Positions 3,309 through 36,300 of a stretch of 64,000 bases of DNA are shown here, in pieces; the stretch's first letter is position 1, and each line of letters begins with the position of its first letter. The translations under genes and the position numbers were made by a program. Location of the stretch: positions 1,054,001 through 1,118,000 of the forward strand of contig NZ_SACM01000001.1 in NCBI RefSeq assembly GCF_004004565.1, written 5' to 3'. A model generated the notes under the pieces. The model saw only the letters and a list, made by a program, of their open reading frames with translations. It had not been told where the DNA came from and made no database searches. Source of the DNA: Inhella crocodyli. Its GTDB lineage: Bacteria > Pseudomonadota > Gammaproteobacteria > Burkholderiales > Burkholderiaceae_C.

Positions 3309-3359
3309 CTTGCCTAACTCCCTGGTTTTGCGGGGGGCATGGTAGGGGTCGGCAAAAGA

Positions 3360-3387: not shown

Positions 3388-3426
3388 GGAGGGTAGAACC
3401 GACCGAAGCGGTCGGCAAAACGCGCC

Positions 3427-4446
<1,020 letters not shown>

Positions 4447-4472
4447 TCAGTTCTCCAGGTCAGGCAGTCAAA

Positions 4473-4964: not shown

Positions 4965-4974
4965 GGCGTGCTCC

Positions 4975-6750: not shown

Positions 6751-6967
6751 CGTCAACCTCCAAGGCGTTCACCATGAACACCAATCGGTGACCCTCCTCA
6801 CGGGCTCATGGCTCGGACTCGGGGCTCAGCCTTCGGACTCCAAGCCGAAGGCGGACGCATGATAGGCCGCCAGCCTCCGCGATTCGCGAAGGCGAACATG
6901 GTCGAAGGCAAGGCGAAGCTGGCTGGTGATAATCCGCGGCCTTTCCGCCCGCCTTCCCTTGTCCGCC
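6751..6967. promoter_or_regulatory. Divergent promoter region between ilvB and the sigma factor gene
   Basis: This 217-base spacer drives ilvB leftward and the sigma factor gene rightward. On the plus strand an extended -10-like TGATAAT lies at 6927-6933, about 35 bases before the TTG start of the sigma gene; no clear -35 is visible. An 8-bp inverted repeat (GCCTTCGG/CCGAAGGC) spans 6829-6852. A short minus-strand frame starting MRPPSAWSPKAE has no run of Ile, Val or Leu codons, so leader-peptide attenuation is not supported. Confidence 0.4.
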
Positions 6968-9109: not shown

Positions 9110-9129
9110 AGGCCTTCACCGCGGCACGT

Positions 9130-11120
<1,991 letters not shown>

Positions 11121-21975: not shown

Positions 21976-22024
21976 TGGTCGGGGTGGCGGGATTCGAACT
22001 CGCTACCCCTTGCACCCCATGCAA
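21976..22024 (-). repeat. attL: duplicated 3' part of tRNA-Pro
   Basis: This 49-base segment repeats the 3' part of tRNA-Pro(GGG) at 36224-36272 with a single difference (T at 22004, G at 36253). It covers the CCA end, T arm, variable loop and part of the anticodon arm in the same orientation, then similarity stops abruptly. The 5' half of the tRNA is absent, so it is an attachment-site remnant, not a tRNA gene. The changed base corresponds to tRNA position 48 (C in the intact gene, A here). Confidence 0.93.
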
Positions 22025-22146
22025 CACAAGCTCATTTCACAACCACCCAATCCAAATCAAGATCTCGAAGAAAATCCATGACATTCAATGGTTTATGGAA
22101 TTCCAAGGAGCGCATGCAGTCGTATAGCTACACTTAGATCCAGCGT

Positions 22147-22170
22147 CAAACGGTGACCAGACGGTGACCA
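22147..22170 (+). repeat. Left arm-type repeat pair (ACGGTGACC x2)
   Basis: Two direct copies of ACGGTGACC, starting at 22150 and 22161, are spaced 11 bp (one helical turn) apart, 122 bases inside attL and just before the integrase gene. The same 24-base block recurs at 36139-36162 with 22 of 24 bases identical. Position and phasing fit arm-type binding sites for the integrase or its directionality factor. Confidence 0.75.
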
Positions 22171-22188
22171 AGACCACCTGGAGCAGAC

Positions 22189-23703
22189 ATGCCGACGATC
22201 ACAGACCGCGCGATGCAGGCCAAGCCCACCAACCAGGAACAGTGGCTTTCACAGCCCTTCGCCCGCGGCGCTGGCGTGTTTCTTGGGCGCATCACGCCGG
22301 CTGGTGAACGCCTCTTCTACTTTCGTTACACAGCCTCCAAAGGCCGCCGACCGTTCTTGCCGATCGGAAGCTACAGCCCCAAGGGCCAAAGTGGAGGCCT
22401 GACCGTGGCACAGGCCTACGCCATAGCTGCCGAATGGAGCCGCCTCTACGTCGGTGGCCACAAAGATCTGCGTGAGCACTTTGAAGCCCAAGCTGCCGCG
22501 GATGCAGCCGCCATTGAAACCAAGCGCCTTACTGCCGAAGCCGAGTCACGGCGCCTGCAAGAGGAGGCAGCAGCAGCCTCGCTAGCCGCATCGCGTCGCC
22601 TCACCGTGCGGCAGCTTTTCAAGCGCTGGCAAGACACCGACCTGCAACCCCACCTTGGCGCAGATGGCAAGCGCATCGGTCGAAAAGACGGCGGCGCTTT
22701 TGTCGCCGCCCAGTTCGAGCGACACGTGTTCCCCTGCATCGGGGACCTTGCTGCCGCCGATCTGACACGACAAGACCTGCTGACCATCTTGGACGCCCGC
22801 AAGGCAGCCGGCCGATTACGCACAGCGAACATGCTGCTCACAGATCTGCGGCAAATGCTTGGCTTTGCGGTGGAGCGAGCCATCATCCCGAGCAACCCTT
22901 TAGAGGGTGTTCAGCGCCGCAAGATCGGCGGCAAGGACACCGAGCGCGAGCGCGTGCTGTCCGATGCCGAGTTACGCAAACTGTGGGCCGCCCTGCCCTC
23001 GGCACGCCTCCATCCTCGAAGCCGCTGCGCGCTCGGGCTCATTCTTTCCACCGGCACACGCGTCGGCGAGGCCATGGGCGCGACCTGGGCCGACGCTCAC
23101 ACCAGTCGCGCCCAGACGACGCAGCTTCGCTCGGTGGCAGATGCCGCAGACACCAAGTTCGGCGTCGTCGACATGGGAGCACGCACCTGGCACCTACCCG
23201 ACACAAAGAACCAGCGGGAACACACCATCCACCTCAGTGAATTTGCATTGACCTGCCTAGAAGAGCTTGCCAGCCTGCGCGAGCTGGACGAAAGCGGCAA
23301 ACCAAGCGCCTGGCTGTTCCCCGATCGCAGCAGAGTCAAACCGGTGTGCGTCAAAAGTCTGGGCAAGCAAATCGCCGACCGTCAGCGAGCAGCCGACAAG
23401 CGCATGAAGAACCGCGCCAAGGGCACAGAAGCCCTGGCGCTTGAAGGCGGCGCTTGGACCTTGCATGACCTGCGCCGCACCGCCGCGACCATCCTCGCGC
23501 GGCTGGGCTTCAGCACCGACGTGATCGACGAGTGCTTGAATCACAAATTGCAAAGCAAAGTCGCGCGGATCTACATCCGCGACCGCCGTGAGGCCGAACA
23601 GAAGCTCGCCTTCGACGCACTGGGGCAGCACCTGGAAAGCCTCCTGAGTGCGAACGCACCAGCCGGCAACGTGCACCCACTTCGGCGTTCAGCTCCAACA
23701 TAA
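22189..23703 (+). CDS. Tyrosine recombinase / integrase
   Basis: This is a 504-residue site-specific recombinase that presumably integrates and excises the island at tRNA-Pro. Residues 1-90 form an N-terminal arm-binding-like domain, followed by a long Ala/Glu-rich helix (about 97-135) and a core-binding domain (about 138-240). The catalytic domain has Arg291 (LSTGTRVGEAMG), Lys340, His426-x-x-Arg429 (WTLHDLRRTAATILARLG), His452 (LNHK) and Tyr462 (ARIYIRD), so all active-site residues are present. It reads inward from attL. No Shine-Dalgarno stands out before ATG 22189. Confidence 0.95.
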   Translation: MPTITDRAMQAKPTNQEQWLSQPFARGAGVFLGRITPAGERLFYFRYTASKGRRPFLPIGSYSPKGQSGGLTVAQAYAIAAEWSRLYVGGHKDLREHFEAQAAADAAAIETKRLTAEAESRRLQEEAAAASLAASRRLTVRQLFKRWQDTDLQPHLGADGKRIGRKDGGAFVAAQFERHVFPCIGDLAAADLTRQDLLTILDARKAAGRLRTANMLLTDLRQMLGFAVERAIIPSNPLEGVQRRKIGGKDTERERVLSDAELRKLWAALPSARLHPRSRCALGLILSTGTRVGEAMGATWADAHTSRAQTTQLRSVADAADTKFGVVDMGARTWHLPDTKNQREHTIHLSEFALTCLEELASLRELDESGKPSAWLFPDRSRVKPVCVKSLGKQIADRQRAADKRMKNRAKGTEALALEGGAWTLHDLRRTAATILARLGFSTDVIDECLNHKLQSKVARIYIRDRREAEQKLAFDALGQHLESLLSANAPAGNVHPLRRSAPT

Positions 23704-23714
23704 CGCCAAACAGA

Positions 23715-23732
23715 CGCCGCATACATGCGGCG
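23715..23732 (+). terminator. Probable terminator after the integrase gene
   Basis: An 8-bp stem CGCCGCAT/ATGCGGCG with a 2-base spacer lies 12 bases past the integrase stop and is followed by CTTGCTTT. The U tract is interrupted, so termination may be partial. Confidence 0.5.
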
Positions 23733-23863
23733 CTTGCTTTGGCCGGTGGGTCCCCAATACGCTCTCTTTCGCCTACTTGGATTGAAACGGAACTGCTTGA
23801 ACACACAAGGTCGTACTCGACCGAGTGTGAGATTGACAGATCCTGCCAAATCCAAAAAAGGTG

Positions 23864-23895
23864 AAGGGCCGACGTCCTGACAGACGTTGGCCCTT
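23864..23895 (-). terminator. Hairpin with minus-strand U tract
   Basis: A 13-bp stem with one non-Watson-Crick position (AAGGGCCGACGTC/GACGTTGGCCCTT) and a 6-base loop. On the minus strand it is followed by CACCTTTTTTGG. It would stop leftward transcription running from the cargo operons toward the integrase gene; no minus-strand gene ends immediately before it. The rest of 23704-24020 shows no gene. Confidence 0.6.
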
Positions 23896-24020
23896 CGGAG
23901 CGCCGGAGCGCATGTCAACTTTCGACGGATGACGTCACAAGCGTACACCACGGGGGTTCGATGAATTCAACCCGTGGTGTGTGCAGCCGGCGCCTGACCA
24001 ACAGCAAATCAGGAGCCCAG

Positions 24021-24311
24021 ATGGACAACCATCAACCACGCCAGCGAAATCTTCCCGAAGTACTTCCCAGTGCACTGCAAGACGTTGTGCTGATCAACGC
24101 CCGGACCTGTGCGGCCATTGGCAACATGGGCATTTCCTGGTGGTTGGCACGTGTAGCAGCCGGCGAAGCCCCTAAGCCCGCCATCCAGCAGCCGCGCATG
24201 ACCCGCTGGCGCTTGGCCGATGTGCGCGAGTACTGGGCCAAGCTGGCCACTGAAGGCAGAAGCTCCCGGGCGTCCCAATCGGTGCCGACCGCAAACAAGG
24301 GCACCCAATGA
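24021..24311 (+). CDS. AlpA-like DNA-binding regulator / excisionase-like protein
   Basis: A 96-residue protein. The core VLINARTCAAIGNMGISWWLARVAAGEAPKPAIQ followed by PRMTRWRLADVREYWAKLA is the MerR-like winged helix of the AlpA family, small regulators and directionality factors encoded near integrases of islands and satellites. ATG at 24021 follows AGGAG at good spacing; the frame opens 60 bases earlier without a ribosome site. The stop overlaps the next gene by 4 bases (ATGA). The expected role is control of integrase or excision, by analogy only. Confidence 0.82.
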   Translation: MDNHQPRQRNLPEVLPSALQDVVLINARTCAAIGNMGISWWLARVAAGEAPKPAIQQPRMTRWRLADVREYWAKLATEGRSSRASQSVPTANKGTQ

Positions 24312-24586
24312 CCAACAAGTCCCGACACGCCCTGGCCACATCAGCGGCGCAGGTTGCAGAGCCGTGGCCGCCATCTTGCGACGGCTCGGATGACATGCCA
24401 GTTGCCCCCAAGCTCGACCAGCCCAGCGGCTCCCAGGACCTGCCGACAGGTTGGCAGAAAGAACTGACCGTCCTGCTCGAACGGCACTCGTCACTGGGCG
24501 CAAATCCCGACCCTCACAGCATGCCCGAGGCCGAGCTACGAGGTCTCTACCAGTACCTCGCGCGTCACAACCGGGGAGGAGGCTGA
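24308..24586 (+). CDS. Island protein of unknown function
   Basis: A 92-residue product that I do not recognise. The N-terminal half is low-complexity (Ala, Pro, Ser); the C-terminal half looks folded (WQKELTVLLERHSSLGAN, MPEAELRGLYQYLARHN). It is likely a real gene because its ATG overlaps the stop of the AlpA-like gene (ATGA) and the next gene starts 3 bases after its stop. Confidence 0.6.
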   Translation: MTNKSRHALATSAAQVAEPWPPSCDGSDDMPVAPKLDQPSGSQDLPTGWQKELTVLLERHSSLGANPDPHSMPEAELRGLYQYLARHNRGGG

Positions 24587-24589
24587 TGA

Positions 24590-25036
24590 ATGGCAAACGG
24601 ACGCCGAGGTCGCAGCAAGCGCGATCTCAGTCGGGAGCCCGGCGGCTTTGTTGCGATGCCCTGGCTCGTCATGGATTCCACGGCCTACCTGAACCTCAGC
24701 CACACCGCGCGCTCGCTGTTACTCGAACTCGCCCGCCAGCTCAGACCCGACAACAACGGGCAGCTCTTGGCCAGCAGAGCTCACCTGCTCAAGCGCGGGT
24801 GGCGCTCGGCGGACGTGATCGATCGGGCCAAGCGCGAACTCCTCAACTCGGAGCTGATCGTCGAAACCGTGAAAGGCCATCGCCCCAACAAAGCCAGCTG
24901 GTTCGCTGTCACCTGGCGCTTGCTGGATCACCACCCCAGCTACGACGCAGGGGTTCAGTCCACCTTTCGGCGCGGAGCCTACTCACAGATTCAAAACGCG
25001 GCGCTTAGTCCGTCAGACGGACCTAAGTCCATCTGA
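24590..25036 (+). CDS. Winged-helix island protein, possible replication initiator
   Basis: A 148-residue basic protein. After a basic N-terminus (ANGRRGRSKRDLSREPGG) come FVAMPWLVMDSTAYLNLSH and ARSLLLELARQLRPDNNGQLL, then a winged-helix-like segment ASRAHLLKRGWRSADVIDRAKREL and HRPNKASWFAVTWRLLDHHP. Related helix-turn-helix proteins are common in Burkholderiales islands; their role is not established to my knowledge. Its 3' end contains the first of four 13-bp palindromes running on downstream (25009-25132), which suggests that it binds there, as a replication initiator or autoregulator. That is inference. Confidence 0.7.
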   Translation: MANGRRGRSKRDLSREPGGFVAMPWLVMDSTAYLNLSHTARSLLLELARQLRPDNNGQLLASRAHLLKRGWRSADVIDRAKRELLNSELIVETVKGHRPNKASWFAVTWRLLDHHPSYDAGVQSTFRRGAYSQIQNAALSPSDGPKSI

Positions 25037-25132
25037 ATTGGTCCGTCGGGCGGAACAGAGGCACATCACCCTGTTCTGCCTGACGGAGCAATGGAAGCAC
25101 CTTTAGCCCGGTTGCTTGTTCCGCCTGCCGGA
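25009..25132. repeat. Array of four 13-bp palindromes TCCGYC-N-GNCGGA
   Basis: Four related 13-bp inverted repeats: TCCGTCAGACGGA at 25009, TCCGTCGGGCGGA at 25042, TCTGCCTGACGGA at 25075 and TCCGCCTGCCGGA at 25120. Start-to-start spacing is 33, 33 and 45 bases, close to whole helical turns. The first unit lies inside the end of the winged-helix gene; the others are in the spacer before the convergent operon. Units 2 and 3 can also pair with each other as a large hairpin (TCCGTCgGGCgGAACAG with CTGTTCtGCCtGACGGA). Iterons, an operator array or an RNA structure are all possible. Confidence 0.75.
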
Positions 25133-25194
25133 CACCATCTAGAAATGCCATCTGCGTGGATCGATGTCTCCTCCGCCTACTGGTTAGGAAGACC

Positions 25195-25815
25195 CTAGAT
25201 ATCAGCCTCAGAGACGCGCAACCCGACTGCCCGTTCAAAAACAAATGAGGCCTGCTTCTGGAAAACAACGACATGCTCAACCGGCACAAGATGAGCTCGC
25301 TTGTTATGCCCTTCGGGCTGATTGACCAGCGTTGCTCTTGCATGAAAGACCAGAGGCCCGTCAGCCGCATGCTTGGCCGTCCTTCGCTGAACCAAATCAA
25401 CCAAGTCCTTGAAGCCCGGGAACACCGGTTGGTCTGAGGGGCCAAGGTGTTGATAGTGAAGGAACTGGAGGTCGGACGTATCCAACTCATCAAACTCAAC
25501 ACAGGCAATCTGATCCGGCACGAGGCGTTCACACCACGAGTCAGATTGGTGCAGCTTGCCTAGTGGGTGAGCAAGGTTGTCAGGCACTCTCCATTGCCCC
25601 TCACCCTCAAAGGCAAAGCGCCATGTCGACTTCTTGTCAACACTCAGGTTAATGACTTCATCTAGGACCCAAACCCGCCCCGTGGATGGCTCCAAGACGT
25701 AGATCGGAGCCCCTGGACTCAAGAGGGAGTCAAGCCTGAGCTGAATAATCAAAGACCAAAGGGCTAAGGCCGCAACGATCAGCCAGGTCGCAAGGCCCGG
25801 TTTGCCCAACTTCAA
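25195..25815 (-). CDS. Small inner-membrane protein of unknown function
   Basis: A 206-residue product, not recognised. One N-terminal membrane helix (LATWLIVAALALWSLIIQL, about residues 8-26) is followed by a largely beta, probably periplasmic domain (GAPIYVLEPSTGRVWVLDEV, WRFAFEGEGQWRVPDNL) with a conserved-looking end (VVVFQKQASFVFERAVGLRV). I chose TTG 25815: it follows GAGGGG at good spacing, directly after the stop of the upstream gene. Longer starts would overlap that gene out of frame. It is the last gene of the five-gene island operon and probably works with the upstream membrane protein. Confidence 0.65.
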   Translation of the reverse strand: MKLGKPGLATWLIVAALALWSLIIQLRLDSLLSPGAPIYVLEPSTGRVWVLDEVINLSVDKKSTWRFAFEGEGQWRVPDNLAHPLGKLHQSDSWCERLVPDQIACVEFDELDTSDLQFLHYQHLGPSDQPVFPGFKDLVDLVQRRTAKHAADGPLVFHARATLVNQPEGHNKRAHLVPVEHVVVFQKQASFVFERAVGLRVSEADI

Positions 25816-25825
25816 AATTCGCCCC

Positions 25826-27667
25826 TCAAAACTGTTCCGACGGCACTTCCTTCGTGCGCATATTGCCGCCCTGCACTTGGTACAAGGTGACTCGAACGTT
25901 GCTAAAGCGAACGCCATCGGCCTCGTCGACCTCCTGCAAGTCGAACACCTGATCCGCCTCGTAGGTCTTGGTGCTGCCCATGTACCGATAGCGCATCACG
26001 TAACGGCCCGCTGCCAACCCCTGCAGCTTGAACTTCTCACCGTTCTTGACAAACACGCTGCGCACTGCGGAGCCGCCACCTTCTCGGTACAGCCTAACGA
26101 GTGCATCGCCTCCACCCCGGGAGTTGTCGATGGTGAAGGATGAGCGACCTCCAGTGGCCAGGCGTTTTGAGCCTGTAACGTAGCCCGTCTTCTCCTGCTG
26201 GTCAGGATCCGCAACCTGTGAACCATCCACAGCGTCAGCCGTTGGCCTGCCCATCAAGTCTGCGAGTAGGTCTGCGCCGTCTGCTCGCGAGCCCTGGTTG
26301 GCAGGGGCAGGGGCACTGTTGGCCTTGGCTTGAGGCTTCACTTGTTGGCGTGATGCCTCTTGACTTCTCAATTCGGCTGCCTGCGCAAAACCTACGATCA
26401 GAAATCCAAAATGGGTGCCTTGTGTGGAGTTGAATTCTTCGGCGAGTCCATGACCAATCTTGTCGATCGCATCCGGAAATGCCGCTTGACTGATAGCGAC
26501 ACCTAGCCTCACCCACTGCTCCTTTGTGAACGCTTCGGCGGGAGGAACATCGCTCCATAGGTTTCGCGCGAAGTCCTTGTCGCGCTTGAACCCTTCTAGA
26601 AAAACAGCGCGTAACCCATCAATCTCGGCTTTGTCCTGGGTCTCGGCAAGCGTCGCGACAGTTAAGGCCCTTACCAGCCTTTGCTGCCAATTCAAAAGAC
26701 CAACCCCCTTGTTCAGCCAACTCAGACCGCGGTTTGCATCAGTGCCTCTGACAACCAACAGCAGACCGTAATAGCCTGCAGCTCTTGGAACGTCCACTTT
26801 GGCAGCTCTGCCAAGCCAACCTTCAACGCATTTCTGCTCGATCCCGTCGCCTGCCGAAACTGTTAGCTCGTCCCCTTGGTTGCCAATGCAGGCCAAGAGT
26901 CCCTCAAAGTAAATATCCTTCACCCCGGCAGTCCAGGATCGTTCAAGCGCCTGAGCCGCAAGCTGCGCGCTTTGCTTGCTAGTAAAAGGGCGATCACCCT
27001 TGCGCATCGCCTCAGACAGTTTCGACACGTGCCATGAAGAGATCGACTTGGCTGACAGGAGAGCCAATTTTTCGGCGGCTTCCTCGTCGGACAGCATTCC
27101 CAAGCCCTCCGCCATCATTTGGGCATGTAACCACTGCGCATCGGGATCGCCTATCAACAAGGCTGCGCGCAGCAACTCTGCTGCCCGTTGAAAGTGAGCA
27201 AGTGCGACGCTGGGATCCTTTTGCACCATGGCGCCACTTCGATGGGCGCGCCCTAGCTCGAGGTGGGCGGCTGCGCTGCCTTGCCGAATTGCAAGTCTGA
27301 GAGCTGCGGCGAAACCCTCTTTCATGACAAGGGTGCCGGACTTTGAGTCAGCCTTCAGTTCCCTCGAAATCTTGATGAGCCGCTCCTCACTGGACCAGTG
27401 CTTGCTCCAAGCATTGATCAGGTTTCGCCGGTCTTCCTCCAATGCTTCAATGGCCAGTTGAATTGCCTGTTCATCACGCCAAGGCTGCACAACGCGCTCA
27501 TTGACGAGCCAGCCACCAACCATCAAGCCAACGGCCGCAAGCGTCAAAGCAACTCCGCGCCACCTGCGTCGAAGCCAAGACCGAAGGCGACTCAAAGACT
27601 CAGTTCGACCTTCGGGCAAATCAACAAACTCCACGGTTTGCGCTTGGCCACCCTTGCTTTCATCCAT
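25826..27667 (-). CDS. Single-pass membrane protein with Sel1-like repeats
   Basis: A 613-residue product. An N-terminal cytoplasmic part ending in a basic stretch (RSWLRRRWRG) precedes one membrane helix (VALTLAAVGLMVGGWLV, about 39-55), so most of the protein would be periplasmic. About residues 110-160 look like Sel1-type repeats (AAHLELGRAHRSGAMVQKD, ALAHFQRAAELL). After a Pro/Ala/Gln linker, residues 509-613 form a beta-rich domain (FTIDNSRGGGDALVRLY, LAAGRYVMRYRYMGS, SNVRVTLYQVQGGNMRT) resembling a C-terminal module I associate with other repeat-containing bacterial proteins. ATG 27667 follows GAGGGAG; an upstream in-frame start at 27727 is possible. Confidence 0.75.
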   Translation of the reverse strand: MDESKGGQAQTVEFVDLPEGRTESLSRLRSWLRRRWRGVALTLAAVGLMVGGWLVNERVVQPWRDEQAIQLAIEALEEDRRNLINAWSKHWSSEERLIKISRELKADSKSGTLVMKEGFAAALRLAIRQGSAAAHLELGRAHRSGAMVQKDPSVALAHFQRAAELLRAALLIGDPDAQWLHAQMMAEGLGMLSDEEAAEKLALLSAKSISSWHVSKLSEAMRKGDRPFTSKQSAQLAAQALERSWTAGVKDIYFEGLLACIGNQGDELTVSAGDGIEQKCVEGWLGRAAKVDVPRAAGYYGLLLVVRGTDANRGLSWLNKGVGLLNWQQRLVRALTVATLAETQDKAEIDGLRAVFLEGFKRDKDFARNLWSDVPPAEAFTKEQWVRLGVAISQAAFPDAIDKIGHGLAEEFNSTQGTHFGFLIVGFAQAAELRSQEASRQQVKPQAKANSAPAPANQGSRADGADLLADLMGRPTADAVDGSQVADPDQQEKTGYVTGSKRLATGGRSSFTIDNSRGGGDALVRLYREGGGSAVRSVFVKNGEKFKLQGLAAGRYVMRYRYMGSTKTYEADQVFDLQEVDEADGVRFSNVRVTLYQVQGGNMRTKEVPSEQF

Positions 27668-27774
27668 CCCCTCAACTCCCTCTTGAATCGTTGTTTGAGT
27701 CCAGCACCCCATGCCAAGGGGGCGCACAAGTATGGGCCGCCTCGGCTGGTGCCTAGACGCCCGGCTGATTCAAC

Positions 27775-29778
27775 TCACTCCGATGACTCCCAAGCCACAT
27801 CCAGCGCGTAGATCGCGTCTTCCTCGGTCTCGAACGGACCATCCATGGCCGTGACGCTGTAGCCACGATCCAGCAAAGAAAAGACCGTCGAGGTCGACGC
27901 CGCCTCCTCCATCCAACTTGCACGCTCGGTTGACTGCAAGGGAACGTCACTTCGTTCGATCCGCCAGAACTTGTCCGTGAACGACTCGGCGCTGAACCAG
28001 CGCCCTTCCAGTAGCGCCCTGTTGAGCCGTTTAAGACGAATCTCTACCCTCGCCCCGATCGGACAGCCACGGCGCTGGCGAACTTCCAAAGAGGCCGTGC
28101 GAGGGCAGTAAAACTCGCGCGACCTCGTCCCAGAGGCCTGCTGGTTTAGGGTAGTGACCAAGCGCTGAGCGACGTCTCGCACAGCGGAGCCTGGATCCTG
28201 GTTCGCAGGGCCTTGCGCCTCTTTCAGGAACCAGCCTCTGTCCGGGTCATGGTGGCACTCAGCAGTCGCCACCCGCTTCCACGATCCTGGCGTTCCCTCC
28301 CGGCTCCTGATGGATACCAACAAGCTCGTGCCGCTCAGCATGTCATCCAGTCGGCTGAAGATGCAGTGCCCCATGGCCTCACCCTCGTCGAACAAGGTGA
28401 CAGCGTCGTGGATGGCCTCCAGACGAAAAGCTCCCCACTCCATGGGTTCGAAGGGACAGGGGATGCCTTGATTGGAAAGGTTCCAGCGCTCATGCTGGGC
28501 CTGATGCCATTGCATCGACCGTTGACGCAGCCAAGCCCAACCCGCCCGGCGCTGCAGTTTGCTCAGGCCAGGGTCGACCTGGCGCAGCCAGTCGGCCACC
28601 TGTGGAAACTCGTCGCGCACCAGCGCGGGCTCAGAAACTTCCGCCGCAGCCGCTGCTCGAACGGCATGCGCGAAGTCCCTTGGGACGGCCTCAAATTCCC
28701 TCAAGTGACTTGGATGCCGCCATGATGAATTGGCGAACTGAGCAAACACGCGCCGGAGAAGCATTGGTGAGGGCAGCGTTTCCAATTTGAGTGTTTCAAG
28801 GCAGAGCAGAAAGTCCACAACCTGCGGCCAAACCTTGCCCTCGTAGAACTCTTCAATCAGGCGCAGGTGCGCAGGCGTGAGTGTCAGCAGCTGGCGCCAT
28901 GTGCTGGGTTTGATGGTCACCCTTCCGGTGTCCATGAGCTCCCGCCGCAGGCGGGTCAGCGGGTTGAGCTGTGGGGCAATCTTCTGGACGCGAAGAAGGG
29001 TGCCCAGCATCAACTCCGCGCCAGGAAAAGTGCCAGGATCTTGGTCAGCGCGATCAAACAATTGGCGATTGGCGACGCTCAGGTTGTAGAGGTCAATCGT
29101 GCAGGGTCTCGATCCGCGATCGAATCGGAGCATGCGTCGTGCTCGGGCCATGCTGGCGCGGTCAACTTGAAGCCCATCCTGGATGCGGCGGCCCAGGGTG
29201 CGCCACTCGGGCTGCTGGCGCAGCGCGCGGAGCATGGGGGCCACACAGCGGTAGACGTAGGCGTGGATGTACCCAGAGTTTGGTGTTCGGCCGGCCGCCC
29301 GTTCGGCCTGGTGGATCTCGAAGGCGCAAGCGGCGTAGAGATCGGCCTGCCAAGTGTGCCCGTTGGGCAAGTCTTCGAACTCAATCAGCGCCTCGGCCGG
29401 TGACTGGGGGGGCATCCACACCATCCCCTTGTAGGTCCGACGCCAGCGAGAGAAAGCGAGCCGCCCATCCGACGATTCTGAGAACCTCATGAGGCCGAGT
29501 GCGACGTGCGCGCGACCGCCGGGGGTTTCGACGGTATCCACCGGATGTTGCAAGGCGAATTGCAACCTTGCCCACACCGATTGCACCCATGCCGATCGGT
29601 GCATCGTTTGCCAGGACAAGGGCCACGCGGAGACGGGCAAGTTGGCGCAGCGCGCTGGCATGGGAGGGATGCCTTTGAGCGACGTGGCACTAGCATCAAG
29701 CCAGCTCGCTTCGAACTCAGGGCCAGATGCTTCTGCCCAGCGCACCTTGAGGTCCGAGGGACTTCGATGGGCGCTCAT
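27775..29778 (-). CDS. PcfJ-like protein
   Basis: A 667-residue, probably cytoplasmic protein. Residues about 453-546 match the PcfJ pattern: LFDEGEAMGHCIFSR, a beta segment SLLVSIRS, then RVATAECHHD and KEAQGPANQDPGS. PcfJ-like proteins occur on plasmids and islands; no activity is established to my knowledge. The N-terminal 450 residues are helical and Arg/Leu-rich with no recognised domain, and the C-terminus is acidic. ATG 29778 was chosen because it overlaps the stop of a 40-residue frame (ATGA); codons upstream lack family-like sequence. It is the third gene of the island operon. Confidence 0.75.
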   Translation of the reverse strand: MSAHRSPSDLKVRWAEASGPEFEASWLDASATSLKGIPPMPARCANLPVSAWPLSWQTMHRSAWVQSVWARLQFALQHPVDTVETPGGRAHVALGLMRFSESSDGRLAFSRWRRTYKGMVWMPPQSPAEALIEFEDLPNGHTWQADLYAACAFEIHQAERAAGRTPNSGYIHAYVYRCVAPMLRALRQQPEWRTLGRRIQDGLQVDRASMARARRMLRFDRGSRPCTIDLYNLSVANRQLFDRADQDPGTFPGAELMLGTLLRVQKIAPQLNPLTRLRRELMDTGRVTIKPSTWRQLLTLTPAHLRLIEEFYEGKVWPQVVDFLLCLETLKLETLPSPMLLRRVFAQFANSSWRHPSHLREFEAVPRDFAHAVRAAAAAEVSEPALVRDEFPQVADWLRQVDPGLSKLQRRAGWAWLRQRSMQWHQAQHERWNLSNQGIPCPFEPMEWGAFRLEAIHDAVTLFDEGEAMGHCIFSRLDDMLSGTSLLVSIRSREGTPGSWKRVATAECHHDPDRGWFLKEAQGPANQDPGSAVRDVAQRLVTTLNQQASGTRSREFYCPRTASLEVRQRRGCPIGARVEIRLKRLNRALLEGRWFSAESFTDKFWRIERSDVPLQSTERASWMEEAASTSTVFSLLDRGYSVTAMDGPFETEEDAIYALDVAWESSE

Positions 29779-29897
29779 TCCTCGATGCCTCCATCGGCGG
29801 TGATTGAATCGCCTGGACGGCAAAACCTGCATGCGAGCCCGAGCTCCATGGCTGCCTGATTGGCCTCCTCTGGGCTGGTTTTGAGTTCTGCGGCCAT
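29775..29897 (-). CDS. 40-residue peptide upstream of the PcfJ-like gene
   Basis: A short frame of 40 codons, starting MAAELKTSPEEANQAAMELG and ending in ITADGGIEE, with a CRFC pair (CxxC) at residues 23-26. Its stop overlaps the ATG of the PcfJ-like gene as ATGA and it begins 21 bases after the stop of the upstream gene, so it fills the space exactly in an operon of coupled genes. The ribosome site is weak. It may be a real small protein or a coupling leader. Confidence 0.5.
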   Translation of the reverse strand: MAAELKTSPEEANQAAMELGLACRFCRPGDSITADGGIEE

Positions 29898-29918
29898 GTA
29901 GCTGCTGCCTGGATGGTC

Positions 29919-30671
29919 TCATTCGACCGTGATCACTCCTAGAGCGTCCAAGTCCGACACGGGCATGTTGTCGAAGTACCGATAGGCAATCCTTTGACCG
30001 GTGGTGTGATCAGGAAAGTGCGCCCACTCTTCCGTGTCAGGACCTTCGTTCAGCCAGTTCTGCAAAGCCGAGACCAATGTGTCGCCCTCGCTGGTAGGCA
30101 TGTACCGTACCCAGTCGCGCCAGCTGTCTCCATGGCCTTCGATCTGGTCGTGGGCCGCCTGAACGCGCTCGCGTTCCGCGGGAGTCAACTTGCGCTCGAG
30201 GGAACGCATTTCCTCCAAGAAGTACTCGGCAGCCTCAACGACTTGCTTTGCCGCCCAGTCAGAGATGGGTGTGTTGCTGTCCAGGATGCGAAGCAATGTG
30301 ACGTTGTCGAGGTCCTCGGGGATTTGGATGTCCATGAGGTCCCCCCGGGTCTCGGGATCTTTATGCCCCCGCGGGGTCAAGGTATCGCCCTCGTCAACCT
30401 CGAACCAGTCGAAAGAGGAGGTCTCCCGATCTTCTGTGCCTGTCGCTTCGCCTTCGTCCTGGTCAGGGGCGAAACGATCAACCGCTTCTTGAAACCAAGC
30501 GGCAAGTTCAGTCAGTTCGCTGGGGGTCAGGTTGACTTGCAGCTTCGGGATGGCGACAGGATGGTTGGCCACCGGGATCCGGGTCGATAGGGTGAGGTTG
30601 ATGCCCGCTCGGTTGGGGGTGAGCTCGGCCGTGAGCTCAAAAGCGGGTGATGCGACAACGGTGGTTTTCAT
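29919..30671 (-). CDS. Acidic island protein of unknown function
   Basis: A 250-residue strongly acidic protein with no recognised domain. The N-terminal 60 residues look beta-rich (MKTTVVASPAFELTAELTP, VAIPKLQVNLTPSELTELA). An acidic linker (DQDEGEATGTEDRE) follows, and the C-terminal half is helical (AAKQVVEAAEYFLEEMRSLE, ERERVQAAHDQIEGH, DTLVSALQNWLNEG). ATG 30671 is preceded by GGAGAA. It is the first gene of the operon that continues with the 40-residue peptide and the PcfJ-like, Sel1-like and small membrane proteins. No signal peptide, so probably cytoplasmic. Confidence 0.7.
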   Translation of the reverse strand: MKTTVVASPAFELTAELTPNRAGINLTLSTRIPVANHPVAIPKLQVNLTPSELTELAAWFQEAVDRFAPDQDEGEATGTEDRETSSFDWFEVDEGDTLTPRGHKDPETRGDLMDIQIPEDLDNVTLLRILDSNTPISDWAAKQVVEAAEYFLEEMRSLERKLTPAERERVQAAHDQIEGHGDSWRDWVRYMPTSEGDTLVSALQNWLNEGPDTEEWAHFPDHTTGQRIAYRYFDNMPVSDLDALGVITVE

Positions 30672-30877
30672 GGTTTCTCCGGTGCCCGCCCGAGCGGAGA
30701 AGCAAGTCGAGCTGCAGGCGGGACATCGCAGCGCAACGCTTTAGCCAGTGAGGTGAGGCGCCCTGGCAAGTGGTCGGTAAATCCGGCGCCGTTAGTGGAG
30801 GAAAAAGTCTCTGCAGAGCCGTTGGGTTAGCTGCGGTGTGAAGCCGGCTTCGTGGTGCTGCTAGAGCAATGAATCGC

Positions 30878-31057
30878 TCATCCCGCGATCTGCGGGACGG
30901 AATTCAACTTGGATGACTCGGCCGGAACTGGTTCGTAAATGGATCTGTTCATGCACCTCTGTGCAGCTACGAACCAGTCCATCCCGGTCTCCTCGACGAG
31001 CTTGTCAGCTTCGAGGCAGATGGCTTCGATCCACTCCCTTTCCTCTGCTTCGGTCAT
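30878..31057 (-). CDS. 59-residue protein downstream of the metallophosphatase
   Basis: A 59-codon frame beginning MTEAEEREWIEAICLEADKL and continuing VEETGMDWFVAAQRCM. It has a very strong ribosome site (GGAGGAGG, 4 bases before ATG 31057) and starts 15 bases after the phosphatase stop, which is good evidence for translation in that operon. The N-terminal 37 residues would form acidic amphipathic helices. Function unknown; it may be a partner or modulator of the phosphatase. Confidence 0.65.
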   Translation of the reverse strand: MTEAEEREWIEAICLEADKLVEETGMDWFVAAQRCMNRSIYEPVPAESSKLNSVPQIAG

Positions 31058-31072
31058 AGGACCTCCTCCGAC

Positions 31073-32008
31073 TTAGTGACTACAAACAAACTTGTGATTG
31101 CTCAGTACCTGCTCACCATCCCAGCGGTAGGCGACCAAAGGACCTTCCTTAGCAGCTGACCAGTCCAGGCAGGCAACCTTGTGGTCCTGAATGACGGGCG
31201 TGCCTTGCATCCAGTAGTGACCGATGAAGACCGGGATGTCAGTGATGGTGCGGGCTTCGTAGCTGTCAGTCATTGCCTTCATGGGGTGTTCTGGGAGTTG
31301 CAAGCGTTGTTCCTCATCCAGGATGGCGACGTCCCTCAGGCTGACGTCGTCGCCCATCCACCAGCGGGTGCGAACCTCAAATCGCTCTACCCCAGAGTGG
31401 TCCCGGAACGAAACGCCCTCGGGCAGTCGGACTTCCAGACCTTTACAGATCCCTTCGACGGCCCTCCATTCAGGGCTGTGTTTGGTGAAGGCAGCGTGCA
31501 AGAAGTCGTCATTGATCGACTGGCCTCCCAGGTGTTGAGCGCCCACTTGGTCGATGTAGGGGGCATGCCACCAAGCGTGGACAGCACGAATGGCGCCGAG
31601 GTCCAGGAAAAGAGGCAGGGTGCGGAACCAGTCGATGATCTCCTTGTGCTTGGCGCTTCCCTCACCCACCTGAGCCAGAAACTCGGCGTGCTGGGCCTTC
31701 TTGCTTGCCGAGTGGTTGCGTAGGAAGCCTGGGCCATCACGTCGAGGCGTGACATACCCAATGGCGTTGAGTTCATGGTTGCCCATGACGGCGTGAGCTT
31801 GCCCGCCCTCGACCATTCGGCGAACCGTGTCGACAACTTTCATTTGCTCGGGACCGCGATCGATGAGATCTCCCACGAACACAGCTTTGCGACCGGCCGG
31901 GGCCTTCCAGCCCTCAGCGGTGCGGACGTAGCCCAGCTTCTTCAGCAGGGCTTCGAGCTTGGCGGCGTGCCCGTGGATATCGCCGATCAGGTCGTAGGAG
32001 AGTCTCAT
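31073..32008 (-). CDS. Metallophosphatase, PPP/calcineurin superfamily
   Basis: A 311-residue cytoplasmic enzyme. The dinuclear-metal motifs are complete: YDLIGDIHGHAAKLEALL (GDxHG, residues 9-13), VFVGDLIDRGPEQ (GDxxDRG), HAVMGNHELNAIGY (GNHE), then AVHAWWH and PVFIGHYWMQG with the distal histidines. The substrate is unknown; relatives include protein serine/threonine and dinucleoside-polyphosphate phosphatases. It is divergent from a NrtR-type regulator with two matching operators in the 82-base gap, one only 19 bases from its ATG, so it is the likely target of that regulator. The 59-residue gene follows 15 bases downstream. Confidence 0.88.
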   Translation of the reverse strand: MRLSYDLIGDIHGHAAKLEALLKKLGYVRTAEGWKAPAGRKAVFVGDLIDRGPEQMKVVDTVRRMVEGGQAHAVMGNHELNAIGYVTPRRDGPGFLRNHSASKKAQHAEFLAQVGEGSAKHKEIIDWFRTLPLFLDLGAIRAVHAWWHAPYIDQVGAQHLGGQSINDDFLHAAFTKHSPEWRAVEGICKGLEVRLPEGVSFRDHSGVERFEVRTRWWMGDDVSLRDVAILDEEQRLQLPEHPMKAMTDSYEARTITDIPVFIGHYWMQGTPVIQDHKVACLDWSAAKEGPLVAYRWDGEQVLSNHKFVCSH

Positions 32009-32026
32009 TTCGTGATCTCTTTGTTA

Positions 32027-32077
32027 GTTGCATTTCGCAACGAACGGAGTGTGGCACACTTCGTTGTGCTTTGCAAC
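32027..32077. promoter_or_regulatory. Twin operators in the divergent phosphatase/NrtR-like promoter
   Basis: Two 15-bp inverted repeats with the same pattern GTTGY-N5-GCAAC: GTTGCATTTCGCAAC at 32027-32041 and GTTGTGCTTTGCAAC at 32063-32077. Their centres are 36 bases apart. One lies just upstream of the phosphatase start and the other 13 bases before the regulator start. Placement and symmetry are what one expects for autoregulation and control of the phosphatase by the Nudix-type regulator. Confidence 0.72.
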
Positions 32078-32090
32078 TATCAAGTTCGCC

Positions 32091-32768
32091 ATGACCCAGT
32101 ACCAGGACGCGCGCCCCAAACACCCAATGCCGTTCACCCGCCTTGAAGTGTGCGTTTTGGGCTTGAACGACCAAGGGCTCCACGTCTTGCTCGGCAAGCG
32201 TGAGGCCCAGCCGTACCAAGGTCACTGGGCTTTACCAGGTGGCGTGCTCAGGATTGATCTCGATGAGGACTTAGAGGGTGGTGCGAGACGCGTGATGCAC
32301 GAGCGCTTAGCCCTGGAGCTCCCTTTCATGCGGCAGCTAGTCGCAGTGGGAGGGAAGCACCGGGACCACGACCGATCGCCGTGGGCGTTGAGCGTGGTTT
32401 ATCGCGCGTTGGTGTGGCAAACAGCTGTCCAACCATTGGCGGGTAAGCGCCTCAGTGATTTGGCTTGGCGCGGAGTTGAGGACGCCGTGACTGACACCAA
32501 GCTGGCCTTTGATCACCGGGAGCTGGTCGCCCTGGCGGTCGAACGGACGCGGCAAGAAGTTGCCGACTTGGAACTACCAGTTGGCTTCCTGCCAAGGGCA
32601 TTCACCCTCGGAGAGCTGCAGTCCATCTGTGAGCGGATCCTGGGTCGCGCTCTGGACAAATCCAGCTTCCGGCGCAAGCTGAGCGATCGTGGTTTGGTCC
32701 ACCCCATCGAGGGCGAAAAGAGGGGTGGCGCGAATCGGCCAGCACAGCTGTTTGAGCTGAGCAGATGA
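32091..32768 (+). CDS. NrtR-type Nudix-related transcriptional regulator
   Basis: A 225-residue two-domain regulator. The N-terminal Nudix fold includes FTRLEVCVLGLNDQGLHVLL and GHWALPGGVLRIDLDEDLEGGARRVMHE. The canonical catalytic Nudix box (GX5EX7REUXEEXGU) is degenerate here, with RRVMHE in place of REUXEE, as in regulators that bind but do not hydrolyse ligand. The C-terminal winged helix has the NrtR signature FTLGELQSICERILGRALDKSSFRRKL and the end NRPAQLFEL. NrtR proteins typically sense ADP-ribose-like ligands. ATG 32091 begins the conserved domain; upstream codons overlap the operators. Confidence 0.88.
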   Translation: MTQYQDARPKHPMPFTRLEVCVLGLNDQGLHVLLGKREAQPYQGHWALPGGVLRIDLDEDLEGGARRVMHERLALELPFMRQLVAVGGKHRDHDRSPWALSVVYRALVWQTAVQPLAGKRLSDLAWRGVEDAVTDTKLAFDHRELVALAVERTRQEVADLELPVGFLPRAFTLGELQSICERILGRALDKSSFRRKLSDRGLVHPIEGEKRGGANRPAQLFELSR

Positions 32769-32969
32769 CTGCACAAGATCACCGAGGACCCGAACGACTC
32801 GGTGCCAAATGACCAGTCTCGAAAGCAACGCCGCATGTGCAGCCCACCATCCCGCACTGAAGAAAACTCGGGCCATGGACAACTCTCAGCAAACTCGGCC
32901 ACCGAGGCTCATCCAGCCAGCAGCTCAACGGCCGCATCAGAGCCTGAGCATCTTCCGGCGCGTCTCCTG

Positions 32970-33161
32970 ATGGGAGAACGAGCAACCGGCGTTCCGGCTA
33001 ATCCGCCACGCGGATGCCTAACTTGGATCTTGGACATCCAAGCCCATGAGGCAGGGCTAGATCCGGACACCTGGTTTGAAGGCACTCGCCCTTCACCTGA
33101 AACGACCGGCGACCAATCGAACGCCATCGTCGACGAGCGCCCGTCAGACGACAAAGGCTAA
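32970..33161 (+). CDS. Possible 63-residue protein (uncertain)
   Basis: A short frame starting MGERATGVPANPPRGCLTWI, followed by LDIQAHEAGLDPDTWFEGT. Its ATG overlaps (TGATG) the stop of another short plus-strand frame of 51 codons beginning at about 32810. The same frame is open back to 32802, giving 119 residues. Composition is not clearly coding, and opposite-strand frames are also open. It may be a decaying gene or chance. Included because it is the only plausible content of 32769-33161. Confidence 0.25.
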   Translation: MGERATGVPANPPRGCLTWILDIQAHEAGLDPDTWFEGTRPSPETTGDQSNAIVDERPSDDKG

Positions 33162-33613
33162 CGGCTTGCGCCACAGCAGTTGCTCTGTCACGGCCGGGGA
33201 ACAATGGACTTGCCTTGTGATTCGCCGCAGATCGCCCGGCTTCGCGACAGAGCAGTAACAGCTAGCTTGTATGTGCGACGAAGTTGCTGACCTGTGACCT
33301 GGCGCTTTGCTGCTCGTTGCGATGACCCTTTGCGACCCATGGCAGCCGCAAGTCTGCGCAAGCCTCAACAGCCGGTTTGCAGCGATAGCGGTCTTCCGCT
33401 GCAGGTCGCCAGGTTCACGGTCAGGGACAAGAAGGCGTCATCGGCTTGCCTAGCCTCGCAGGACCAACGATGTGCGCTGCCGGGGTTGAGGCAGACGGCC
33501 AAACGTTATGGCCGCTTATCGACTCCATTAGCGGGCTTGGAGGCCCGCAGCGGGGCCAAGATCGCACGCCCAGGGCCGTGGCCTGAGCGAAGACTGCGCC
33601 GCCGGAACGCGGG
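33162..33613. other. Non-coding or decayed stretch in the island
   Basis: I find no convincing gene, tRNA or terminator here. Short frames exist on both strands but have no ribosome sites, no coupling and no domain signal. It probably contains the downstream region of the 627-residue minus-strand gene and degraded sequence. Confidence 0.4.
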
Positions 33614-35497
33614 TCAGATCCTGTCGGCCACCACGCGGAACTCCGCGTTCACCGCGCGCGCCAGCGACTCCACGCCGAACAGCAGCGTCCTTAGCTGGCT
33701 GGCGCCCACTGTGTCAGCACTACCGACCCGCTTGACGAAGTCGCTCTTGCGGACATGGGGCTGGACGATGATGACCTCACAGTCATAGTTCGTGCCCAGC
33801 TTGCCTAGAGCCGCTTCGAAGGCCTTGGCATCCGGCAAGGGTGCCAAGTTCACCGCCCACGGCTGGTCCCAGATGCGCTTGGAGCCGTTCTTCTTCAGGC
33901 GTTCCCTGATGCGATCCAGCAGCAGCTGCGCGTCGAGAGCGCGCAAGTTCTTGATGGCCTGGGCTGCGACCAGCTCGTAGGGGCCGGGGGCTGCCTGGCG
34001 CGCACCTGAATCGCTATCGGCGCCTTTGGCGTGGACCAACGTCAACCGTTTGGGCTTCGATTCCACGTCCAGATGGACAAAGTCGGCAACCTCGCTGGCG
34101 CCATCGTCACAGTACAGCCAGACCCCTTTTGGCGATGGCTTCTTCAGCCCCAACAAGGTCAGCCCCTCCTTGAAGATCCACTTGAAGAGGCTCTCATCGG
34201 TATCCGTCATCATGTCCAGGAGCGGCACCGCACCCGAGACCTTCTTGCCGTTTTTCAGCGTCACAGGAGCCGGCGGCTTCTCCTGCGTCACGTTGTACTT
34301 GTTGAAGTTCCCGTAAACAAACCCTTTGAACGGCGACTCCTGCCGGCGAACCAGCGCCAGCGTGCCGCCCGTGATCGTATGGCCGCTGTCGTAGTAGGCA
34401 CGAAGCAGGGCCGAGGACTCTGAGATCGCACTCGCCCACTCGTTGAAGGGCGCTGCAGGCATGGTCGCGACGAGATATTGAATCCTGCCGTCCACTAGGT
34501 AGGGCTCCACCTCGACGACGGCCGTCTTAGACGATTTGATCTCCGTGACAAGCACGGCGAAGGCGCAGGCAGGCTGGCCTGCCGATGCGCCCAGCGCGTT
34601 CAGCTCCACTCGGAACTGGTCAGCAAGTGCCTTTGCCTTGGCTCGTCCACTTGCGCCGTCCAACGTCTCATGGTCGGCCTGCGACACGGCATAGCAGCCA
34701 TTCACGTTGGCAAGATCATCGACCCAGCTTGCGAGCGCACCGTGGACCTGAAGCTCCGATCCGGGTTTGGCCTGGATGGCCAAGTCCACCAAGGTCAAGA
34801 GGTTCACGGTGCGCGCTTCAAAAGTCTGAAGGTTGCTATTCGGTCCCGTCCACACCGACGAGTTGCGCAGGCTGACACCGCCCTTGGTCGACCTCACGGC
34901 TCCTGCAAGGAAGCTGGCGTCGTTCATCGGGTCTATGGCGTCGACCAGGTCCGAGCCGGAGATGATCTTGGACGTCGGCTTGATGCCCGTGTCCCGATGG
35001 ACGCCGGTCAGCCAGAGCGTTTTCAACTTTTCGCCCTCGACCAAGGCCTTCACCAGGACCGCCTGCGATACCGGTTTCCAGTTGGCGAAATAGTCGAACT
35101 GCAGGTGCTGCAGCAACGCGGCTCGGTGGTCAGCATCCGTCGTCGTCAGCAGCAGCAGGCCACCCTTCGTCACGGTCACCATCAATAGATGGTGCAGCCG
35201 GTCTTTGGCAGCGCCCATCGGCAGCCAAGTCACCGGGCGATCTTCCTCGTAGATGCACGCCGCGCTGCGCAAGCCCGGCCGAATTCCCCAGGGGGCGATG
35301 AAATCCGTCTTGGTGATACTGCCCGCAACCTTTGCGCTATGGGTCACTCTGCTCGGCAACTCGACGACGTCGTTGATGACGATCATGGCCGCGCCCATGA
35401 CGGCGTCGATCTCCTCGTCGATCTTCGAGATGGTACCCGTGTGCATGGCCAGGACATGGCTGCTGTACGGCGATAGGTCGTGCTGCGAGTAAGCCAA
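33614..35497 (-). CDS. Large island protein with PD-(D/E)XK-like nuclease motif
   Basis: A 627-residue product, probably cytoplasmic, that I do not recognise as a named family. The start is TTG 35497 after GGAG at 8 bases. The first 440 residues are mixed alpha/beta with no known domain. Around residues 459-519, VWLYCDDGASEVADFVHL, then TLVHAKG (His489-Ala-Lys491) and AAQAIKNL (Gln513) reproduce the order acid - D - (E/H)xK - Q of the PD-(D/E)XK nuclease fold as seen in restriction-type and helicase-linked nucleases. A stand-alone nuclease on an integrated island suggests a defence or anti-element role; that is inference. It is monocistronic. Confidence 0.72.
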   Translation of the reverse strand: MAYSQHDLSPYSSHVLAMHTGTISKIDEEIDAVMGAAMIVINDVVELPSRVTHSAKVAGSITKTDFIAPWGIRPGLRSAACIYEEDRPVTWLPMGAAKDRLHHLLMVTVTKGGLLLLTTTDADHRAALLQHLQFDYFANWKPVSQAVLVKALVEGEKLKTLWLTGVHRDTGIKPTSKIISGSDLVDAIDPMNDASFLAGAVRSTKGGVSLRNSSVWTGPNSNLQTFEARTVNLLTLVDLAIQAKPGSELQVHGALASWVDDLANVNGCYAVSQADHETLDGASGRAKAKALADQFRVELNALGASAGQPACAFAVLVTEIKSSKTAVVEVEPYLVDGRIQYLVATMPAAPFNEWASAISESSALLRAYYDSGHTITGGTLALVRRQESPFKGFVYGNFNKYNVTQEKPPAPVTLKNGKKVSGAVPLLDMMTDTDESLFKWIFKEGLTLLGLKKPSPKGVWLYCDDGASEVADFVHLDVESKPKRLTLVHAKGADSDSGARQAAPGPYELVAAQAIKNLRALDAQLLLDRIRERLKKNGSKRIWDQPWAVNLAPLPDAKAFEAALGKLGTNYDCEVIIVQPHVRKSDFVKRVGSADTVGASQLRTLLFGVESLARAVNAEFRVVADRI

Positions 35498-36138
35498 ATG
35501 GATCTCCGCGGATGTGCGGTCCCTCTGGTGGCGACAGGCCGCCCGTTGCGGCGATCAACGCCTGATGAGGGCTTTCTCAAAACATGGTACGCCAGCGCCC
35601 CAGCTAAGTTCGAGCCAGCGCGGATTGGGCCGCTTCACAAGCGTTCCCACGGAATGTGCCTGCCCCAGGAGACCCAAGCCGATGCGTTTCACGCTCTCAA
35701 GATGTGAGACTGGGCGTCCGCAAATCGCAGGGATGCAGCCGTTCGGCCGTAGTGAGTGGAGGACTGCTCCCAGCCTGGCTCGGTCATTCGCCCCTTCTGG
35801 CCGAGCACCCGCTCTTGGGCAATTTCAGCCCGTAGGGACAGCCGCGCTGACCAACACCAGCCGCAAGCGGTCGATCCACAGCTTGGAGCGCGCATCTTTG
35901 CGCTACTTGGAGCTAAGCCAGTCGCAACAACAAGCGACTGCCAGTCGTAGAACTGTGGCGCAAGTCGTAATCACTTTGGTGACCTACGACCAACGAGCCA
36001 CTGGCCCATGCCTGCAGGCAAACCTTGGGTTGCTTCAGGGAAATTGAGGGGTCCATCGCCGGAAGCACATAGACCGATGCAGCTTCAAGTCGCCGCCTGC
36101 TAGGGGTGACGTTGCATCGACCGGAAACTGCCTTGCTG
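35498..36138. other. Long stretch without a recognisable gene
   Basis: Between the nuclease-like gene and the right end of the island I see no convincing gene. A plus-strand open frame (35514-36047) translates to an Arg/Ser/Pro-rich sequence with no domain, ribosome site or coupling and is probably chance. The region should contain the promoter of the nuclease-like gene (minus strand) near its left edge and may hold further integrase-arm sites toward 36139. Confidence 0.4.
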
Positions 36139-36162
36139 CAAACGGTGACCGAACGGTGACCA
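36139..36162 (+). repeat. Right arm-type repeat pair (ACGGTGACC x2)
   Basis: Copy of the block at 22147-22170 with 22 of 24 bases identical and the same orientation. It contains ACGGTGACC starting at 36142 and 36153, again 11 bp apart, 61 bases inside attR. It is probably bound by the integrase or its accessory factor when the ends are brought together. Confidence 0.75.
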
Positions 36163-36178
36163 GCAGCTCAGAAGGACG

Positions 36179-36210
36179 AAGGGCCTGGAGTCTTGCGACT
36201 CCAGGCCCTT
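36179..36210. terminator. Island-borne replacement terminator for tRNA-Pro
   Basis: A perfect 14-bp stem (AAGGGCCTGGAGTC/GACTCCAGGCCCTT) with a 4-base loop lies 13 bases beyond the tRNA CCA end, inside the island. On the plus strand it is followed by GCCTTTTTCTC; on the minus strand by CGTCCTTCTG, a weaker U tract. It occupies the place that the hairpin at 21930-21960 held before integration. Confidence 0.7.
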
Positions 36211-36223
36211 GCCTTTTTCTCTA

Positions 36224-36272
36224 TGGTCGGGGTGGCGGGATTCGAACTCGCGACCCCTTGCACCCCATGCAA
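36224..36272 (-). repeat. attR: island copy of the tRNA-Pro 3' end
   Basis: The 3'-terminal 49 bases of the intact tRNA-Pro gene, repeated at 21976-22024 with one difference. Recombination between the copies would excise a circle of about 14.25 kb and leave an intact tRNA gene. Confidence 0.93.
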
Positions 36273-36300
36273 GTGCGCTACCAGGCTGCGCTACACCCCG
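36224..36300 (-). tRNA. tRNA-Pro (anticodon GGG)
   Basis: A 77-base tRNA with encoded CCA. Acceptor stem CGGGGTG/CACCCCG, D arm GCGC...GCGC, anticodon arm CTTGC-ATGGGGT-GCAAG giving anticodon GGG, variable loop GGGTC and T loop TTCGAAT. The T stem GCGAG/CCCGC has an A-C mismatch at 52-62, also present in the attL remnant, so it predates the insertion. It lies downstream of the merR-type gene on the same strand and is the integration site of the island. Confidence 0.96.

Follow-up and report, generated by a model that had tools for sequence, protein, structure and literature searches.

Two described RNA elements bear most closely on the locus considered here. One is the SAM-II riboswitch (Rfam RF00521, SAM_alpha; SAM, S-adenosylmethionine), which Leyn et al. 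(2014; PMC4239095) place only in Rhizobiales and Rhodobacterales. The other is a candidate RNA element presented there as metXZ, with a pseudoknot and a terminator; 35 beta-proteobacterial genomes have it, each in one copy that precedes metX(W) or metZ. Here, we describe a leader RNA resembling these elements ahead of mobile genes in a 64,000-nucleotide stretch of the Inhella crocodyli genome (contig NZ_SACM01000001.1, positions 1,054,001 to 1,118,000), called the window below. An integrative element in the window carries five open reading frames (ORFs), which encode a 250-residue protein (p250), a 40-residue peptide (p40), a 667-residue PcfJ-like protein, a 613-residue Sel1-like protein, and a 206-residue membrane protein (p206). 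The initial annotation had combined these into a five-gene unit resembling sensing or defense modules; the positions of all five ORFs, their shared minus strand, and the acidity of p250 (49 D and E versus 20 K and R residues) were confirmed. Our preferred reading, which we give an even chance, is that p250 and PcfJ would form an operon carried as mobile cargo under a diverged SAM-II-like leader, with Sel1 and p206 as probable separate cargo.

The leader RNA (30737 to 30790, minus strand) is of the metX/metK, or SAM-II-like, type and lies 65 nt upstream of the ATG of p250. Its motif emerged on comparison of the upstream DNA of the loci described below, and a simple pattern for it occurs once in the window (30740 to 30782), upstream of p250; 30 letter-shuffled copies of the window averaged 0.1 matches. 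Because the pattern was drawn up with the window leader already in view, the fair test is the search with R1, a covariance model made without the window from six leaders in the PcfJ-like loci L009, L010, L011, and L035. Within the window, R1 matched 30737 to 30790 with 38.0 bits (E value, 2.4e-9), the next best match scoring 12.3 bits. Two matches at an E value of ≤1 were obtained in the 3.76-Mb genome, the best being the window leader (E value, 1.4e-7) and the second lying directly upstream of metK, identified by NCBIfam (19.8 bits; E value, 0.026). The window leader keeps the P1 helix and the AUUU, CUUGC, and GCUAAAG stretches. P1 is 100% paired in a seven-leader alignment that includes the window, with double changes at two pairs, and 99.1% paired in an alignment of 39 leaders whose rows were fitted to the P1 of R1. 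The percentage paired, the number of double-change cells, and the covariation score were each matched by 2 of 500 shuffles for the seven leaders and by 0 of 500 for the 39.

Among 110 genomes of the family, that of I. crocodyli included, 102 have an R1 match at an E value of ≤0.1, and 62 of these have two. At the 30 loci with the best-scoring matches, the downstream ORF was metK in 16 cases and MetX-like in 8 (three confirmed by NCBIfam); three more were ORFs of 137 to 161 residues of unknown function, two were misread, and one lay at a contig end. When 20 of these loci were searched with Rfam, SAM-II matched all seven MetX loci, two of them above the cutoff (46.3 and 44.8 versus 36 bits). Related leaders matched by SAM-II scored between 15.6 and 46.3 bits, and a minus-strand leader in L033 reached 35.4 bits against the cutoff of 36. 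The class shares with SAM-II its P1 helix, covariation included, and the downstream GCUAAAG strand, and the window leader has the core AUUU, UUGC, and GCUAAA segments, which we take to be those involved in SAM contact in the published structure. It differs from SAM-II in falling short of the gathering score and in lacking the A-rich stretch (ACAAAU) before GCUAAA, and metK-type leaders are hardly matched by the SAM-II model. In three of the loci (L122, L123, and L125, from about position 1550), the metX/metK-type leader stands upstream of the 137- to 161-residue ORF, which may be a so far unrecognized member of the SAM regulon; the ORF of L123 had no match in Pfam or PHROGs.

Set beside the text description of the metXZ element, the leader class is probably the same entity. 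The element occurs in the same kind of bacteria on the same target, R1 matches metX leaders, and its proposed terminator can be likened to the strong hairpins ending in U runs that follow the L035 leader and the first L010 leader (z scores of −2.5 and −6.0, respectively). Leyn et al. (PMC4239095) place metXZ on metX(W) or metZ, whereas the class described here is also found on metK and on mobile cargo. Within a partial coverage of the literature, we met no report of a riboswitch before PcfJ genes or of SAM-II leaders on mobile cargo.

Of 298 other genomes of the family, 5 have a relative of PcfJ, as do, by profile, 20 of 398 other genomes of the order. Twenty-six PcfJ-like loci besides the window were compared (L008 to L012, L028, L035, and L089 to L107; stretches of 5 to 21 kb, some ending at contig ends); one of the 20 order genomes, G670, is not among them. 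With a profile of three sequences, one pattern-based scan across a collection of 84,980 species genomes returned three loci, two of which had already been found (L033, which is L009, and L034, which is L010). The leader pattern lies ahead of PcfJ in L009 and L010, each of which has it at further sites as well; in L035 and in L011, whose PcfJ is divided between two ORFs, it precedes the PcfJ operon's first gene. Pattern matches in L027, L028, L076/L100, L077/L101, L098, and L099 did not look like the class on inspection by eye and were excluded. In L010, three leader copies lie within 1.6 kb (1330 to 1382, 1498 to 1553, and 2890 to 2940), with a strong hairpin resembling a terminator after the first, and G061:C108 has three R1 matches spaced much as in L010. 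In L009, inspection by eye shows CRISPR-like repeats and cas-like genes at about 3300 to 10100, near the PcfJ-like gene with its leader.

A second form of the pattern occurs in L019 (twice), L029, L035, and L088, and SAM-I/IV riboswitches above the cutoff are also present in L019, L029, and L088. DUF3293 genes (L029, L035, and L088) and HD_4 genes (L010 and L088) recur in leader loci. In L088, an IMG/VR contig, a SAM-I/IV riboswitch and a SAM-II-like leader (5634 to 5739 and 6222 to 6294) lie near DUF3293, HD_4, p250-family, and N-formylglutamate amidohydrolase genes. A bolder proposition, which we regard as speculative and improbable, is that mobile elements of the order have recruited SAM-sensing leaders (metX/metK SAM-II-like and SAM-I/IV) onto a shared cargo pool of PcfJ-like, p250-family, DUF3293, HD_4, N-formylglutamate amidohydrolase, and MoxR/VWA/metK genes. 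This would amount to a horizontally moving SAM-depletion regulon, in which low SAM, caused for instance by SAM-destroying or SAM-consuming phage enzymes, would serve as the alarm that turns the cargo on. If SAM depletion were indeed the cue, it would link invaders that consume or degrade SAM to the cargo of mobile elements.

Ancestrally, the gene was longer than the p250 ORF (29919 to 30671, minus strand), which covers its first 250 codons. The ORF ends in a TGA (29919 to 29921) sharing bases with an ATG (29920 to 29922) that is in frame with PcfJ, and its same-frame continuation (29775 to 29918) includes the 40-codon ORF (29775 to 29897). Apart from that one TGA, 29775 to 30671 forms an uninterrupted frame. 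An L019 relative, from another genome of the family, continues past the TGA position into the p40 sequence, and a search of 399 genomes of the order with this relative found four further genomes as well as the window gene, the latter with one TGA (E value, 4.1e-18). All five aligned relatives have the same amino acid at the position of the window stop, as does a sixth, from L088. The 40-codon ORF does not qualify as a gene of its own, since it shares the frame of p250 after one TGA and six intact relatives have a sense codon there; this part of the initial annotation fell away. Approximately 32 of the 47 residues past the stop still align with the relatives. As modeled, the read-through protein has low confidence overall (predicted local distance difference test [pLDDT] score, 49.7); the exception is most of residues 225 to 284, confidently predicted to form a small helix-helix-strand-strand-helix-strand unit, which the stop cuts. 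The window copy may be decaying.

Among 369 genomes of the class, the p250-family profile matched the window genome alone. A match in L013 was rejected as false, with a poor alignment among what by eye are phage-type genes. Intact p250-family genes adjoin an N-formylglutamate amidohydrolase gene in L030 (by Pfam) and in L029 and L031 (by likeness), and in L088 the two are in the same gene run. The p250-family gene of L019 precedes genes for a MoxR-type ATPase, a VWA-like protein, and SAM synthetase (metK), and that of L032 lies among other genes.

The PcfJ-like protein (27775 to 29778, minus strand) matches PF14284 with an E value of 3e-4, its domain lying at about residues 446 to 550. It has the EGxxMxHC and S(I/V)R...T motifs in common with the family, differs from it in scoring under the cutoff, and has a long N-terminal part common to a subgroup. 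Both family labels given initially correspond to Pfam matches under the gathering scores, PcfJ with 21 versus 25 bits and Sel1 (PF08238, one repeat) with 29.4 versus 30.7 bits. PcfJ relatives scored above the PF14284 cutoff in L035 (32.4 bits), L011 (29.4 bits), and L008 (26.9 bits) and below it in L010 (23.0 bits) and L009 (11.3 bits). The in-frame ATG at 29922, overlapping the TGA of p250, is a candidate PcfJ start that would give a 715-residue protein with a 48-residue extension. A phage or plasmid origin of PcfJ was considered and rejected: tblastn returned no phage record, and two Alteromonas plasmids had only 18% of the query in common. Going by a modest structural model, the PcfJ domain may resemble GNAT acyltransferases; the listed structural matches have 2 to 16% identity, and the later strands of the GNAT fold are not confidently modeled.

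The Sel1-like protein (25826 to 27667, minus strand) has a hydrophobic stretch near residue 38, a probable membrane anchor, followed by a Sel1 repeat and a C-terminal domain. In 200 genomes of the family, it was found in its own genome, and two others matched in the Sel1-repeat stretch only; its C-terminal domain alone occurs on three unrelated plasmid replicons, on one of them near TerD genes in Hymenobacter. The p206 gene (25195 to 25815, minus strand) starts with TTG, and the strong hydrophobic stretch near residue 8 of its product predicts a membrane-anchored protein. No relative of p206 was found in the few searches made (viral contigs, the stretches of the 26 other PcfJ-like loci, and seven congener stretches); viral contigs likewise gave no match for PcfJ or Sel1. 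For ORFs other than the PcfJ-like and Sel1-like ones, Pfam gave nothing convincing, and PHROGs returned only families of unknown function for the five.

Asking whether the gene set travels together, as the initial annotation had proposed, gave a largely negative answer, because no Sel1 or p206 relative was found among the ORFs of the 26 other PcfJ-like loci (blastp E value of ≤0.1). Weakly p250-like ORFs occur at only one of them, L035 of Sphaerotilus mobilis, where an ORF upstream of PcfJ matches residues 1 to 69 of p250 (E value, 0.002) and an ORF 6 bp downstream of PcfJ gives the p250-family profile its top match among 3143 ORFs (E value, 0.016); reversed-ORF controls gave best E values of 2.5 and 2.2. 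When profiles of the downstream ORF and the p250 family were compared, the match was weak (E value of 0.002 for one pair; probability, 13%). Third-position GC is 0.61 in Sel1 and p206 versus 0.71 in p250 and 0.72 in PcfJ. Because the genes do not cotravel and their third-position GC differs, we take p250 and PcfJ as the core and Sel1 and p206 as neighboring cargo, probably a separate envelope cargo.

The following scheme would fit these sequence comparisons. With ample SAM, the leader would fold and hide the ribosome-binding region of p250, and when SAM falls, p250 and PcfJ would be made. A possible expression platform is a GC-rich hairpin without a U run (30685 to 30722, minus strand) just before the GGAG ahead of the p250 ATG; the fold of 30660 to 30736 (−25.8 kcal/mol; z score, −1.2) is not significant. 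Since the p250 frame and PcfJ overlap by ATGA (29775 to 29778), full-length p250 and PcfJ were probably cotranslated and probably act together. The PcfJ domain, which we guess from its model to be a GNAT-like acyltransferase, may modify a target of the host or of an invader. Given the TGA in p250, the unit is either damaged here or works with a shortened p250. A leader class from central metabolism before mobile genes of unknown function would provide a handle on when the PcfJ-like family is wanted.

Several points weigh against a SAM-regulated p250-PcfJ operon, beginning with the fitting of the 39-row alignment to P1 noted above. Two other pair measures were ordinary (77 and 40 of 500 shuffles for the seven leaders; 51 and 79 of 500 for the 39), and the whole window leader is no more stable than its shuffles (z score, 0.24). 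The window leader reads ACCUCA in place of ACAAAU and has the lowest score of the 39 aligned; the genome's own metK leader, lower still and outside that set, is a marginal match on its own. Rfam gave the window leader no SAM match at an E value of ≤10, and a scan of the whole island found no riboswitch. At the loci searched with Rfam, SAM_alpha matched 1 of 10 metK loci (18.8 bits; E value, 8.1) and none of the 3 loci with the 137- to 161-residue ORF. The R1 leader is absent from 22 of 27 PcfJ-like loci and from all six other p250-family loci, three of which carry the second form of the pattern. Outside the window, the p250-PcfJ link is seen at one locus, L035, with weak E values. The PcfJ model is shallow (four sequences; mean pLDDT score, 60), and Foldseek found no match to it at an E value of ≤1e-3.

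The alternative that fares best, though we consider it somewhat unlikely, is that this is decaying cargo, a once SAM-regulated p250-PcfJ operon whose leader and p250 are degenerating so that nothing works as a unit. The TGA falls inside the only confidently modeled part of the read-through protein, and the missing ACAAAU together with the low score means that ligand binding by the leader may be lost. However, there is just one stop, the sequence after it still aligns with relatives, the 667-codon PcfJ frame is uninterrupted, and the leader retains P1 with compensating pairs and its core motifs. Less plausible again would be a captured metX/metK-type leader that has changed its ligand or role, a variant riboswitch through which the operon would answer to a cue other than SAM. 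The window leader does depart from the class in an otherwise well-kept region, and Rfam is blind to it, but the leaders of L009, L010, L011, and L035 keep the ACAAAU region, so that PcfJ operons as a group look ordinary. A five-gene sensing or antiphage module, a cytoplasmic factor with two membrane parts, is very improbable, for although the genes lie in an island, tightly spaced on one strand (the ATGA overlap, 107 bp between PcfJ and Sel1, and 10 bp between Sel1 and p206), and the PADLOC candidate PDC-S71 matches part of a neighboring gene, the composition breaks before Sel1, p40 is not a gene, and Sel1 and p206 relatives are missing from the stretches of the 26 other PcfJ-like loci.

PADLOC-DB 2.0.0 gave no match for the five ORFs at an E value of ≤1, in agreement with the initial view that no described system has this composition and at odds with a known antiphage system. 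No positive evidence for a defense role of the five was found, and the leader RNA points to SAM or methionine regulation instead, which corrects a misleading reading of the locus as a new five-gene system. The PDC-S71 match (E value, 2.9e-5) is to the C-terminal part of a 627-residue protein encoded close to the island's right end (33614 to 35497, minus strand), which is perhaps the better defense candidate there.

The island placement was borne out by an attachment-site (att) repeat, a tRNA gene, and an integrase. The integrative element spans 21976 to 36272 (14,297 bp) and is bounded by a 49-bp repeat identical at 48 of 49 positions, with the left att copy at 21976 to 22024 (no strand assigned) and the right copy (36224 to 36272) within tRNA-Pro(GGG) (36224 to 36300, minus strand). 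A tyrosine integrase gene (22189 to 23703, plus strand; PF00589 E value, 1.6e-23) adjoins the left copy, and the element thus has both the att duplication at a tRNA 3′ end and the tyrosine recombinase integrase expected of tRNA-integrated elements. In the seven congener stretches compared, p250, PcfJ, Sel1, and p206 are absent (tblastn E value of ≤0.01). The site is a hotspot: four of five other genomes of the genus have an integrase 51 to 76% identical beside an att copy, and the fifth (G021) has a single att copy in the stretch compared. The island also contains, at 31073 to 32768, a divergent pair of genes for a metallophosphoesterase and an NrtR/Nudix-type regulator, and a 47% identical pair lies on a congener contig with an att copy (L063).

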